Program-made: the position numbers and the translations under genes
Notes under the pieces: model-generated
Seen by the model: the letters and a program-made list of their open reading frames with translations, nothing else
Told to the model about the DNA's origin: nothing
Database searches by the model: none
NCBI GenBank assembly: GCA_012511885.1
Contig: JAAZFE010000092.1
Location: 1-32,962, forward strand
Length of the DNA: 32,962 nt
Direction of reading: 5' to 3'
Origin: Lentisphaerota bacterium
GTDB lineage: Bacteria > Verrucomicrobiota > Kiritimatiellia > CAIQIC01 > Lenti-01
In this document: one piece after another, positions 113-30,242 of the stretch
Numbering within the stretch: the first letter of the stretch is position 1
How the letters are laid out: every line of letters begins with the position of its first letter

Positions 113-676
113 CTACTGGCTAACAAGTGTCGAAATGGCGATCCAGATCTGGGTCTTCACCGCATTTGGTGTAGTGCCGAGGAAAGTTTTAATGCGGAGG
201 TGATGTTTGCTCCACTTGAAGAACAGCTCGACCATCCATCGTGCTTTGTACAACTTGGCTATGGTCATGGCTGGCAGTGTGAAATCGTTGGTGAGAAACA
301 CGAGCAGAGAACTTGGATCGTCTGGGTTGCGAAACTTGATCCGGCGCAGAGGTTCGGGATACGCCCTGGCTGGGTAGAAATTTGTGAGAAGCACGGTCTG
401 CTCGCAGATCAGGCCAGTACTCCTGTCGGCCGAGTGAGAGTATCGACGTTGAAACTTGAAGTTGGTTTTGGCCCTGGTGACAAAGAACGCTCGGCAGGTG
501 TTGATTTCGAAACGCCGGGTGAAGTCGAGATAGGCACGGTCCATAAGATAGTATGCGCCGGGCATGGGGATGAGATTGTCTAGGATGTTGACATCGTGCA
601 TTCGCCCGTCGGAAATATGAATAAACTCGAGGATGTTGCCCCGAAGGTTCATCAAGGTATGATCGTATAGGCGGAT
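113..676 (-). pseudogene. IS4-family transposase remnant
   Basis: This is the catalytic C-terminal half of a DDE transposase of the IS4 type. The sequence shows the segment HISDGRMHDVN, the second catalytic Asp in MDRAYLDF, and near the end the IS4 signature Y-2-R-3-E-6-K (Y, R, E and K in LYKARWMVELFFKWSK). The frame is open only from 676, just after a stop at 677-679, so the N-terminal domain with the first Asp is missing. The only start codon in reach is a TTG at 655. The 3' end also breaks: the frame stops after ISTLVSQ, where relatives continue, and a +1 shift gives only a short resumption (VAI). At roughly 50% GC it is less GC-rich than the genes that follow. No terminal inverted repeats were found. 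It is a dead fragment, not an active element. Confidence 0.8.
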
Positions 677-27620: not shown

Positions 27621-28409
27621 TCAGCCCTCCGGAATCACCAGCGTCAGGCCTTCGCGTATTCGGTTGGGATTCTTGAGCTGATCCCGGTTCGCCTCGAAAA
27701 TTTTAATCCACTCGTTCGGCGTCCCGTAATACTGTGCCGCAATCGTCCCGAGCGTTTCCTTGGGCTTCACCACATGCGTCCGGCCTGCGGCTGCCGGTTG
27801 CGCCGCCGCGACCTTCTGCTCCCCGGGTTTCTCCGCCGGCTTCGTCTCCTTGGCCTTGGTCTTCCCCTTCGCTGGCCGTTGCGCCGCGGCCTTCGTCTCC
27901 GCCGCCGGCTTGGCCGCCACCGCCCCCGCCGTCTGGATTTCTCCCGACCGCCACATCGCCAGCTCCGTCTCCAGCTCGCGGATGCGGTCGTTGCGCACCT
28001 GCAAATCCCGCTGCCACTCCTGCGGCATCGCCCCCGCCTGCGACGCGAACGTCATCCGGCAGTGCCGGATCAGCTCCTCGACCGCCTCGCGGTTCGGCGT
28101 CTCCGGGCGCAACTCCAGATACCGTTCATAGTGATAAATCGCCCCCACATAATCCTCATAATAGTTGTCCAGAATCAGCGCCAGCTCCCGATGCGCCAAC
28201 GCCAGCTTCGGATCCTTCTCCAGCGCCCGCCGGCACCACGCCGACGCCTCGTCAATATCGTTCCTTTGCTTCGCCGCCAGCGCCCGCCGCATGTGCCGCT
28301 GACGCGCCTCGCGCGCATCCGACGACACCTGTTTGCACCCCGCCCCCCCCGCCAGCAGCAGCGCCGCCGCAAACAGTCCAATCCAACTGATCTTCAACAC
28401 CCTTCTCAT
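27621..28409 (-). CDS. LysM- and TPR-containing lipoprotein
   Basis: 262 aa. The N-terminal signal MRRVLKISWIGLFAAALLL ends in lipobox AGGAGC, so it should be a lipoprotein. Residues about 30-105 hold a TPR-like pair (ALAAKQRNDIDEASAWCRRAL, then YEDYVGAIYHYERYLELRP). A coiled-coil stretch (about 120-150) and a Lys/Ala/Glu/Pro-rich linker follow. The last 50 residues are a LysM domain (HVVKPKETLGTIAAQYYGTPNEW, then IFEANRDQLKNPNRIREGLTLVIP), which binds peptidoglycan GlcNAc. The start is chosen at 28409 because the promoter places the transcript start there; ATG codons at 28418 and 28421 are alternatives. It heads an operon ending in murG-murC. Confidence 0.85.
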   Translation of the reverse strand: MRRVLKISWIGLFAAALLLAGGAGCKQVSSDAREARQRHMRRALAAKQRNDIDEASAWCRRALEKDPKLALAHRELALILDNYYEDYVGAIYHYERYLELRPETPNREAVEELIRHCRMTFASQAGAMPQEWQRDLQVRNDRIRELETELAMWRSGEIQTAGAVAAKPAAETKAAAQRPAKGKTKAKETKPAEKPGEQKVAAAQPAAAGRTHVVKPKETLGTIAAQYYGTPNEWIKIFEANRDQLKNPNRIREGLTLVIPEG

Positions 28410-28416
28410 GAAAATC

Positions 28417-28446
28417 ATCATAGCAAACCCCAATTCCAAAAATCAA
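28417..28446 (-). promoter_or_regulatory. Promoter for the LysM operon, predicted leaderless start
   Basis: On the minus strand TTGATT (28446-28441), an 18-base spacer and TATGAT (28422-28417). Seven bases after the -10 comes the A of ATG at 28409, so a leaderless mRNA is predicted. The two upstream in-frame ATGs at 28421 and 28418 overlap the -10 itself. Confidence 0.55.
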
Positions 28447-28528
28447 AACAAACCGACATCCCATCCCATTTTCATCCCTCCCTCCAGACTCTCGCGCGCC
28501 CCCCCCCCAATCACCTGCAAAACATCCG

Positions 28529-28646
28529 AAATCCACCAAAAACCTCGTTTTTCAAGCCGTTTTTCGCGATTTTTCGTGTTTTCGACCCACTTTTGGCCCG
28601 TTTTCGGCCTATGTTTCGACATTTTTCAGCACTTTTCGCGCGTTTT
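28529..28646. other. Helically phased A/T tracts, copy 1 (predicted curved DNA)
   Basis: A- or T-tracts of three to five bases are centred near 28530, 28540, 28550, 28562, 28572, 28580.5, 28592.5, 28602.5, 28615, 28624, 28634.5 and 28644.5. The average spacing is about 10.4 bp, close to one helical turn. Such phasing is known to give a stable bend; its role here is inferred. Confidence 0.7.
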
Positions 28647-28663
28647 CGTGACCTCCTGTCTCC

Positions 28664-28679
28664 GGTCAATTTTTTGACC
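28664..28679. repeat. Inverted repeat GGTCAA-TTTT-TTGACC, copy 1
   Basis: A perfect 6-bp stem with a TTTT loop at the boundary between the T-rich and GC-rich halves of repeat copy 1. It is exactly conserved in copy 2. It could be a protein-binding site or a hairpin. Confidence 0.7.
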
Positions 28680-28909
28680 TGCCGCGATCTTTTCGGCTGC
28701 TGATCACCGCACAATTTGCTCACCGCTTCCTCCGTTGCGCTCGACGCCAAATCGCCGTCGCTCGATCACCCAACGACGCCTCCTCATCCACCGCCAATTC
28801 CGGCCGCCTGCAAACCGCGCGAAATGAGTGTCGAAATGAGTTTGCCAACCGCCCAACAGCAAAGGGGTTAGTCCTATAAATTAATAAAAGTGAGTCGTCA
28901 ATTGCGACG

Positions 28910-29039
28910 TTTTTTTTACCCGTTTTTTGGCCAAAAACACCCGAAATCCACCAAAAATCACGTTTTTTGACCCGTTTTTTGCAATTTTTCGCGTTTTCGG
29001 CCTATTTTTCGACATTATTCAGCACTTTTCGCGCATTTT
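28910..29039. other. Helically phased A/T tracts, linker and copy 2 (predicted curved DNA)
   Basis: Tracts are centred near 28913.5, 28925.5, 28935, 28945, 28955, 28965.5, 28977.5, 28987, 28995.5, 29007, (29017, interrupted), 29027.5 and 29037.5. The average spacing is about 10.3 bp. The individual tracts differ in length from copy 1, yet the phasing is kept. Confidence 0.7.
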
Positions 29040-29239
29040 CACGACCTCCCGCCTCCGGTCAATTTTTTGACCTGCCGCGATCTTTTCGGCTGCTGATCAC
29101 CGCACAATTTGCTCACCGCTTCCTCCGTTGCGCTCGACGCCAAATCGCCGCCGCTCGATCACCCAACGACGCCTCCTCATCCACCGTCAATTCCGGCCGC
29201 CTGCAAACCGCGCGAAATGAGTTTGCCAACCGCCCAACA
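28941..29239. repeat. Direct repeat, copy 2
   Basis: Second copy of the module, offset 415 bp from copy 1 at its left end, 393 bp in the middle and 381 bp at its right end because of two indels. The right half (29057-29239) is almost identical to copy 1. Its last bases supply the -35 of the promoter for the gene at 29280. Confidence 0.9.
29057..29072. repeat. Inverted repeat GGTCAA-TTTT-TTGACC, copy 2
   Basis: Identical to the inverted repeat at 28664-28679 in copy 1 and at the same internal position of the module. Confidence 0.7.
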
Positions 29240-29250
29240 TGATCTATACT
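29223..29250 (+). promoter_or_regulatory. Promoter for the RsbW-like operon
   Basis: TTGCCA (29223-29228, inside repeat copy 2), a 16-base spacer and TATACT (29245-29250); the overlapping TACTAT (29247-29252) is an alternative -10. The ribosome site GGAG (29271-29274) lies 5-6 bases before ATG 29280. The same TTGCCA exists in copy 1 but has no -10 at the right distance there. Confidence 0.55.
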
Positions 29251-29279
29251 ATAGGCTCTAGAGGTGTACTGGAGACCCG

Positions 29280-29741
29280 ATGATGCAAAAACCCGCTGAA
29301 AGAACCTGGCAGATTGCCAACCAATTCCCCGCCATGGCTCAGGCCGCCCGCGAAGTCTTCGACTGGCTCGTCAACCAACCCCTCCCCTCCCGCGTCAAAT
29401 ACTCCGTCGGCCTCGCCATCGAAGAGCTCGTCACCAACTCCATCAAATATGGCTACAGCGACGACAACGAGCACATCATCCGCGTCACCATCTCCATCCA
29501 GCCCGACTACATCAAGATCGTCTTCGAAGACGACGGCAATCCCTTCGACCCCACCGCCTACCCCCCCCCCGACATCCAAAAGGTGGTTGACTCCGCCCAT
29601 GCCGGCGGCCTCGGCATCCAGCTCGTCCGCCGCATCACCTCGAAAATGACCTATGAACGAGTCGGCCACATCAACCGCAACACCCTCCTGATCCGCCGCA
29701 TGGAGCCCGGCGACACCCAGGTCATCAAGCTCAACCTCTAA
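29280..29741 (+). CDS. RsbW/SpoIIAB-like ATP-binding protein (HATPase_c_2)
   Basis: 153 aa, a single GHKL ATPase domain as in anti-sigma factor Ser kinases. The N-box is IEELVTNSIKYGY (Glu and Asn for Mg-ATP), the G1 box is EDDGNPFDP and the G2 box is GGLGIQLVRR. Members bind a sigma factor or phosphorylate an anti-sigma antagonist (STAS protein). No STAS protein, PP2C phosphatase or sigma factor gene is in the window, so the partner is unknown. It is followed by a second copy of the same family after 21 bases, and both belong to an operon with a lipoprotein and pdxB. Confidence 0.85.
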   Translation: MMQKPAERTWQIANQFPAMAQAAREVFDWLVNQPLPSRVKYSVGLAIEELVTNSIKYGYSDDNEHIIRVTISIQPDYIKIVFEDDGNPFDPTAYPPPDIQKVVDSAHAGGLGIQLVRRITSKMTYERVGHINRNTLLIRRMEPGDTQVIKLNL

Positions 29742-29762: not shown

Positions 29763-30242
29763 ATGCGCAGCCCCCAGCTATACGGACAGCGAGGCTGGCC
29801 CATTCCCAATCAACTGGCCGCCGCCGTCGCCATGGCCCGCGAAGCCTACACCTGGGTCGAATCCTTCCCCATCTGCGAACACGCCCAATACGCCCTCCGC
29901 CTCGTCCTCGAAGAAATGCTCTCGAACACCATCAAATACGGCTACTCCAACTCCGCCCCCCGCACCATCTCCATCCGCATCACCGTCAACAGCCAGCACA
30001 TCCAGATCGTCCTCGTCGATGACGCCAACCCCTTTGACCCCACCGACCAGCCCCGGCCCGACATCGCCAGCCGCATCGAAGCCGACGGCGAAGGCGGCTT
30101 CGGCCTCGAACTCGTCCGCCAAAGCTGTTCCAGCATGACCTATCAACGCGCGCAAAACCAAAACCGTCTCACCCTCGAAATCCCTTCCGCCGACTCCGAC
30201 AACAACGAAGCGGATCTGGTCGAAGCCCGGGAGCATACATGA
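29763..30242 (+). CDS. Second RsbW-like ATP-binding protein, diverged G1 box
   Basis: 159 aa, a paralogue of the preceding gene. Matching marks are the N-box LEEMLSNTIKYGYS, the G1 region VDDANPFDP and the G2 box GGFGLELVRQ, with the shared SMTYQRA-like strand near the end. The usual glycine in the G1 box (DDG in the first copy) is Ala here, which may weaken ATP binding. The C-terminus adds an acidic extension (ADSDNNEADLVEARE). Its stop overlaps the start of the lipoprotein gene (ATGA). The pair may form a heterodimer or act on different partners; that is inference. Confidence 0.82.
   Translation: MRSPQLYGQRGWPIPNQLAAAVAMAREAYTWVESFPICEHAQYALRLVLEEMLSNTIKYGYSNSAPRTISIRITVNSQHIQIVLVDDANPFDPTDQPRPDIASRIEADGEGGFGLELVRQSCSSMTYQRAQNQNRLTLEIPSADSDNNEADLVEAREHT

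Follow-up and report, generated by a model that had tools for sequence, protein, structure and literature searches.

Two phased A/T-tract arrays between divergent operons of a Lentisphaerota bacterium, probable members of a genome-wide set of predicted DNA bends

Clusters of A-tracts ~100 bp long are described in bacterial nucleoids and are thought to lie at the tips of nucleoid loops (Tolstorukov et al., 2005, as cited in PMC4761138). Phasing of A-tracts at 10–11 bp has been tied to DNA curvature and to nucleoid proteins (Tong and Mrazek, 2014; PMC3940949), with bends proposed, from that comparative study, to lie at loop tips and cooperate with such proteins (PMC3940949). Single-molecule work has shown that intrinsic curvature pins plectonemes, with pinning found upstream of promoters (Kim et al., 2018; PMC6301789). 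One survey argues that a genomic periodicity of ~10 bp need not reflect selection for bending (PMC7537859). The REP elements, another dispersed extragenic feature, are favored by particular insertion sequences (Tobes and Pareja, 2006; PMC1525189). Among the papers searched, none dealt with A-tracts in Kiritimatiellae.

The arrays analyzed here resemble the nucleoid clusters, as these are outlined in the citing text, in being ~100-bp clusters of A-tracts that recur through the chromosome; they differ from that outline in being discrete and dense, in belonging to a genome of 62% GC, in lying mostly at gene borders, in recurring in place between species, and in being flanked by an insertion sequence (IS)-like end. 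Unlike the genome-wide periodicity of A-tracts (PMC3940949), the present signal resides in discrete arrays, and all other coding sequence, when pooled, is near shuffle level (55 versus 7 ± 19). The mechanism proposed below is the same as that of the curvature-pinned plectonemes (PMC6301789), but the present arrays are not promoter-specific; and whereas REP elements are conserved palindromes (PMC1525189), the arrays share spacing and not sequence. Curved A-tract clusters are thus already known, and it is the density, discreteness and positional conservation found here that are unusual.

The two arrays and their tandem duplication

The window, i.e., the whole stretch of 32,962 nucleotides that was analyzed, is one entire contig (C60) of a 2.49-Mb MAG (166 contigs, 84.6% complete) whose nearest named relatives, judged by its type III glutamine synthetase, are MAGs assigned to Kiritimatiellae or other Verrucomicrobia (83% identity). 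In it an 870-bp gap separates a TPR/LysM protein gene (27621–28409, minus strand; PF00515, PF01476), with murG and murC further down the same strand, from a divergent operon with two genes for RsbW-like HATPase_c_2 proteins on the plus strand (29280–29741, PF13581; and 29763–30242). This gap contains a tandem duplication; each duplicate begins with an A/T-tract array and continues into a tail of ~200 bp that is not phased. Tracts were defined as AnTm runs of at least four bases with no TpA and were listed by script, and the arrays were evaluated using shuffles and a bend model. Copy 1 (28519–28646) contains 12 tracts with a best period of 10.4 bp, of which, on the plus strand, three of A type are followed by nine of T type; copy 2 together with its linker (28910–29039) also contains 12 tracts, with a best period of 10.2 bp. 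In both arrays, tracts of at least four bases therefore repeat at the helical period over several turns. The power at the best period, which could be at most 12, is 10.3 for copy 1 and 10.1 for copy 2, and it is matched in 0 of 500 dinucleotide shuffles of either copy (shuffle maxima 6.7 and 7.9). The AA/TT autocorrelation within the arrays peaks at 10, 20–21, 30–31 and 41–42 bp and in the remaining contig displays a weak coding rhythm only, and the two copies are the top two 130-bp phased places of the contig.

The predicted bend was calculated as summed wedge vectors (Bolshoy-type parameters), so that the values are model sums rather than measurements: 187 degrees per 125 bp for copy 1 and 220 degrees for copy 2, versus a genome-sample mean of 34. 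These predicted bends fall in the top 0.05–0.2% of the genome sample, and no shuffle reaches them; a model using A-tracts only gives ~150 degrees for each copy, which again no shuffle equals. The predicted net bend of both arrays is far above background. In autocorrelation (~10-bp peaks) as well as in predicted curvature (above all shuffles) the arrays thus stand apart from shuffled sequence, as a preliminary description of this DNA, made from the letters, had anticipated. That description had reported about 25 tracts, in two copies, repeating every ~10.4 bp across 28529–29039. The phasing is borne out, as is the mean spacing of 10.3 bp in the linker plus copy 2 (from 28913.5 to 29037), but between the two 12-tract arrays ~260 bp (28647–28909) are without phase; for copy 1 the count of 12 tracts stands, and the array starts at 28519, one extra tract leftward of the extent first given.

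The two arrays are tandem duplicates and not independent loci. The duplicates span 28519–28859 and 28934–29239, and an ungapped repeat of 238 bp that extends into the array is 95% identical between them. The tails (28647–28859 and 29041–29239), the first of which matches nowhere else in the genome outside the locus, differ at 7 of 201 bases, versus 11 of 106 aligned bases in the array part (p = 0.02), which corresponds to ~3-fold faster divergence of the array than of its adjoining tail. The only indel in the array is a 22-bp segment of copy 1 (28577–28598), equal to two helical turns and containing two tracts, that copy 2 lacks; since two whole turns are missing, the phase is kept. The earlier claim that spacing persists between the copies despite base changes is correct. 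A dispersed repeat was considered as the identity of the window arrays and rejected: outside the locus there are just five weak short matches, with none for the tail, and four of the five fall within other phased arrays of different sequence.

Promoter-like sites are present on either side of the duplication, both outside the arrays. That of the LysM operon (TTGATT-18-TATGAT; 28417–28446, minus strand) is 73 bp from copy 1, and a similar TTGATT...TTTGATAG is found upstream of LysM at the same place in two congeners (three species in all); that of the RsbW-like operon (TTGCCA-16-TATACT; 29223–29250, plus strand) is 184 bp from copy 2. Beside copy 2, at 28894–28917, is a hairpin that resembles a terminator and has a T run, and an Rfam scan of 28300–29400 gave no match up to E = 1.

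Two further phased arrays occur in the window, one of 7 tracts (1081–1166) in a divergent gap adjoining an IS remnant, and one of 6 T-tracts (1461–1528) located 56 bp before the gene at 1585. A DDE transposase remnant (PF01609) is found at window positions 113–652 and in the first 127 bases. The first ~124 bases of the window are identical to the ends of four other contigs (L077, L078, L079 and L080); because of this recurrence, the contig is taken to break at a multi-copy IS. Positions ~847–1039 are part of a dispersed repeat of ~120 bp, copies of which, ~75–97% identical, are present on ~30 other sample contigs.

Arrays across the genome and among relatives

The pattern TTTTN{5,8}TTTTN{5,8}TTTT has 900 matches in the genome, and a control that is out of phase, its gaps being 10–13, has 26; as matches overlap within arrays, these numbers are not counts of arrays. 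Phased/control counts are moderately raised in members of the family (218/22 in G002 and 74/13 in G001), and for most of 56 relatives they are far closer to 1:1. With a four-tract pattern the genome has 219 matches, the highest number among 195 genomes of the phylum, 88 of which have zero. The second-highest four-tract count, 174, belongs to a genome of the same class and another family (G043), possibly reflecting an independent expansion of phased arrays.

Arrays themselves were counted in a 756-kb sample (~30% of the genome, with genes from a home-made caller) that is not random, in that it includes the contigs of the first matches. It contains 85 arrays of at least five tracts, versus 1 and 2 at control spacings, and 72 of the 85 are intergenic, though ~83% of the sample is coding. 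Scaling of this non-random sample suggests, as a rough figure, ~280 arrays in the whole genome; the two window arrays are thus two of probably a few hundred bends located mostly at gene borders. The arrays are ~60–150 bp long, with a mean tract spacing of 10.29 bp, and occur in divergent, co-directional and convergent gaps. Among gaps longer than 600 bp, divergent ones have an array density of 1.03/kb, convergent ones of 0.90/kb and co-directional ones of 0.32/kb; co-directional gaps of 300–600 bp have 0.71/kb. The arrays are not specific to sequence upstream of promoters, as they occur in convergent gaps, at similar density where these are long, and in coding sequence too. Palindromes of the type TTTTCCAYRSYRTGGAAAA were seen beside or within phased tracts (L002 1430–1680; L124; L165 15214–15330) in at least two genera of the family.

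Comparison of intergenic tract pairs shows that those on opposite strands peak at 10, 20–21, 30 and 40 bp, like those on the same strand, with few at 5, 15 and 25 bp. Spacer identity is 0.43 between neighboring same-strand units and 0.38 between different arrays. Opposite-strand phase being equal and neighboring units being barely more alike than unrelated ones, it appears to be shape that is conserved rather than sequence; the same small difference means that tandem duplication of units does not explain the arrays, and a satellite (tandem-repeat) array was rejected on this ground. A few arrays also extend into coding sequence, where chains of at least five tracts number 11 versus 1.7 in synonymous shuffles. 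An intact ApbE gene (PF02424; L059 4694–5794) holds chains of 13, 11 and 6 tracts, with a phasing of 68.9 versus 19.4 ± 5.2 in synonymous shuffles, and each of five genes, picked for their arrays, exceeds its synonymous shuffles (0–7 of 1000).

Arrays recur at orthologous gene borders. Where a gene flank in G002 has an array, the orthologous flank in the window's genome has one in 7 of 9 cases, versus 17 of 213 otherwise (600-bp flanks; 0.82 Mb of G002 covered); the Fisher p of 2e-6 is too small a value, since the 7 flanks represent 4 loci. At the starts of the DUF3108 and FecCD genes, tracts lie at matching places in both species, with spacers and tract edges that differ. The phased T-tracts there encode Phe-rich N-terminal segments of the DUF3108 protein (L068 15043) and the FecCD permease (L074 1140) in the two species. 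An array upstream of a tRNA-synthetase-like gene is common to G002, and some arrays are located 3' of genes in both species (L035/L258). Selection on DNA shape, which the preliminary description had suggested from the two copies of the window, is thus supported more broadly, by strand-independent phase, the excess in coding sequence and the recurrence at orthologous borders together with the whole-turn indel.

Neither G001 nor G002 has counterparts of the two arrays of the window. In both congeners the RsbW-like gene faces efp, and LysM follows tadA, in each case across a short gap with no array (efp and tadA were named by eye from translations); in these two relatives, then, the corresponding operons have no upstream arrays. 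Because the neighbors of the RsbW-like and LysM genes differ in G001 and G002, the window junction is rearranged compared to these congeners. The idea that arrays are general marks of synteny breakpoints was rejected, as gene neighbors are broken at 6 of 7 array gaps versus 7 of 12 other long gaps, with no clear excess.

A mobile element is also associated with the arrays. The same 122-bp IS-like end occurs, whole or partial, in 14 places, mostly contig ends, and its edge is readable in 13 copies, 9 of which have an array of at least six tracts starting within a few bases outside; as background, 6.3% of intergenic 110-bp segments have at least five tracts (binomial p = 9e-9). Judged from the peptide MKYHRITQEER, this 13-copy end is putatively IS30-like; an HTH_38 search of the assembly (84.6% complete) for the transposase behind it gave no match.

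Possible roles of the arrays

The explanation we favor, with about even confidence, is that both arrays are part of a genome-wide set of curved segments that are kept for their shape and act in chromosome architecture. The scatter of arrays throughout the genome, mostly at gene borders, suggests chromosome shaping more than the switching on of two neighboring genes. Each array, with a bend of about half a turn, would anchor a supercoiled loop (plectoneme) by its tip at a gene border, and a nucleoid protein such as HU may bind there preferentially; the host MAG has two HU-family genes, HU being ordinary, and a search for a histone-fold protein with PF00808, the sole histone family searched, gave no match in the 84.6% complete assembly. 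One mobile element may take advantage of DNA that is bent or bound by protein when it inserts. At the present locus a rearrangement, found in this species and not in the two congeners, has the LysM and RsbW-like operons diverging from a tandemly duplicated array; effects of the arrays on the two local promoters would be secondary, possible as a side effect. As arrays are rare in the nearest relatives, their function would be either lineage-specific or dispensable.

We regard it as unlikely that the arrays serve instead to bend DNA upstream of promoters, thereby assisting RNA polymerase or regulators, both at the LysM/murG/murC and RsbW-like operons and at other loci. The preliminary description held that the bends flank the promoters of these two operons, and this stands to the extent that the gap holding both arrays is divergent and has a promoter-like site on each side of them; curvature upstream of promoters is known (PMC6301789), long divergent gaps have the top array density, by a small margin, and the array upstream of the tRNA-synthetase-like gene is common to G002. 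A specific link to these promoters, however, is not supported. The sites lie outside the arrays at the distances given above, the same two operons in the congeners have short upstream gaps and no arrays, long convergent gaps have nearly the density of divergent ones, and elsewhere some arrays are 3' of genes in both species or within coding sequence. The arrays in convergent gaps and 3' of some genes, and the hairpin with its T run beside copy 2, would suit insulation or termination of transcription, in which polymerase arriving from either direction would be halted or slowed by T-rich arrays where genes end; this is most improbable, as tract strand is mixed within arrays, arrays are found upstream of genes and in coding sequence as well, and termination requires no 10.3-bp phase.

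That the arrays are functionless by-products, left in slack intergenic DNA by slippage, by unequal recombination or by some mutational habit, would be consistent with the tandem duplication in the window and the faster change of its array part, with the preference for long gaps, and with the strong variation in array number between close species. We nevertheless consider this decidedly unlikely: slippage leaves the equal phase of opposite-strand tracts unexplained, neighboring units resemble each other scarcely more than unrelated ones do, one helical period is common to many unrelated arrays, phased tracts exceed synonymous shuffles in intact coding sequence, and arrays recur at orthologous borders. 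It is quite improbable, too, that the arrays chiefly serve, or were shaped by, insertion sequences and rearrangements, with a transposase that recognizes phased bent DNA, even though most readable copies of one IS-like end adjoin an array, the gene neighbors at the window junction differ on both sides from those in two congeners, and targeting of repeated extragenic elements by insertion sequences has precedent in the REP elements (PMC1525189). Most arrays of the sample do not touch the IS-like end, arrays of unrelated sequence are most likely older than the insertions, array gaps show no clear excess of neighbor breakage, and no transposase of the expected type was found in the assembly; moreover, IS targeting can itself be a consequence of bending.

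Extended to the lineage, the architectural explanation would amount to a shape code, which we put forward tentatively and with some doubt: discrete bends at gene borders, a few hundred in number, whose place and phase but not sequence are conserved and some of which overlap the coding sequence of N-termini, would fix chromosome loops and be read as a target by a mobile element. The long-standing argument over whether bacterial phased A-tracts are selected for chromosome shape has drawn on genome-wide averages that are weak. With a signal that resides in discrete arrays, is shared in place with a congener and is rare in most relatives, the question becomes directly testable, as a half-turn shift can put a single array out of phase and leave its composition as it was, and the link to the IS-like element may provide a natural read-out of DNA shape.
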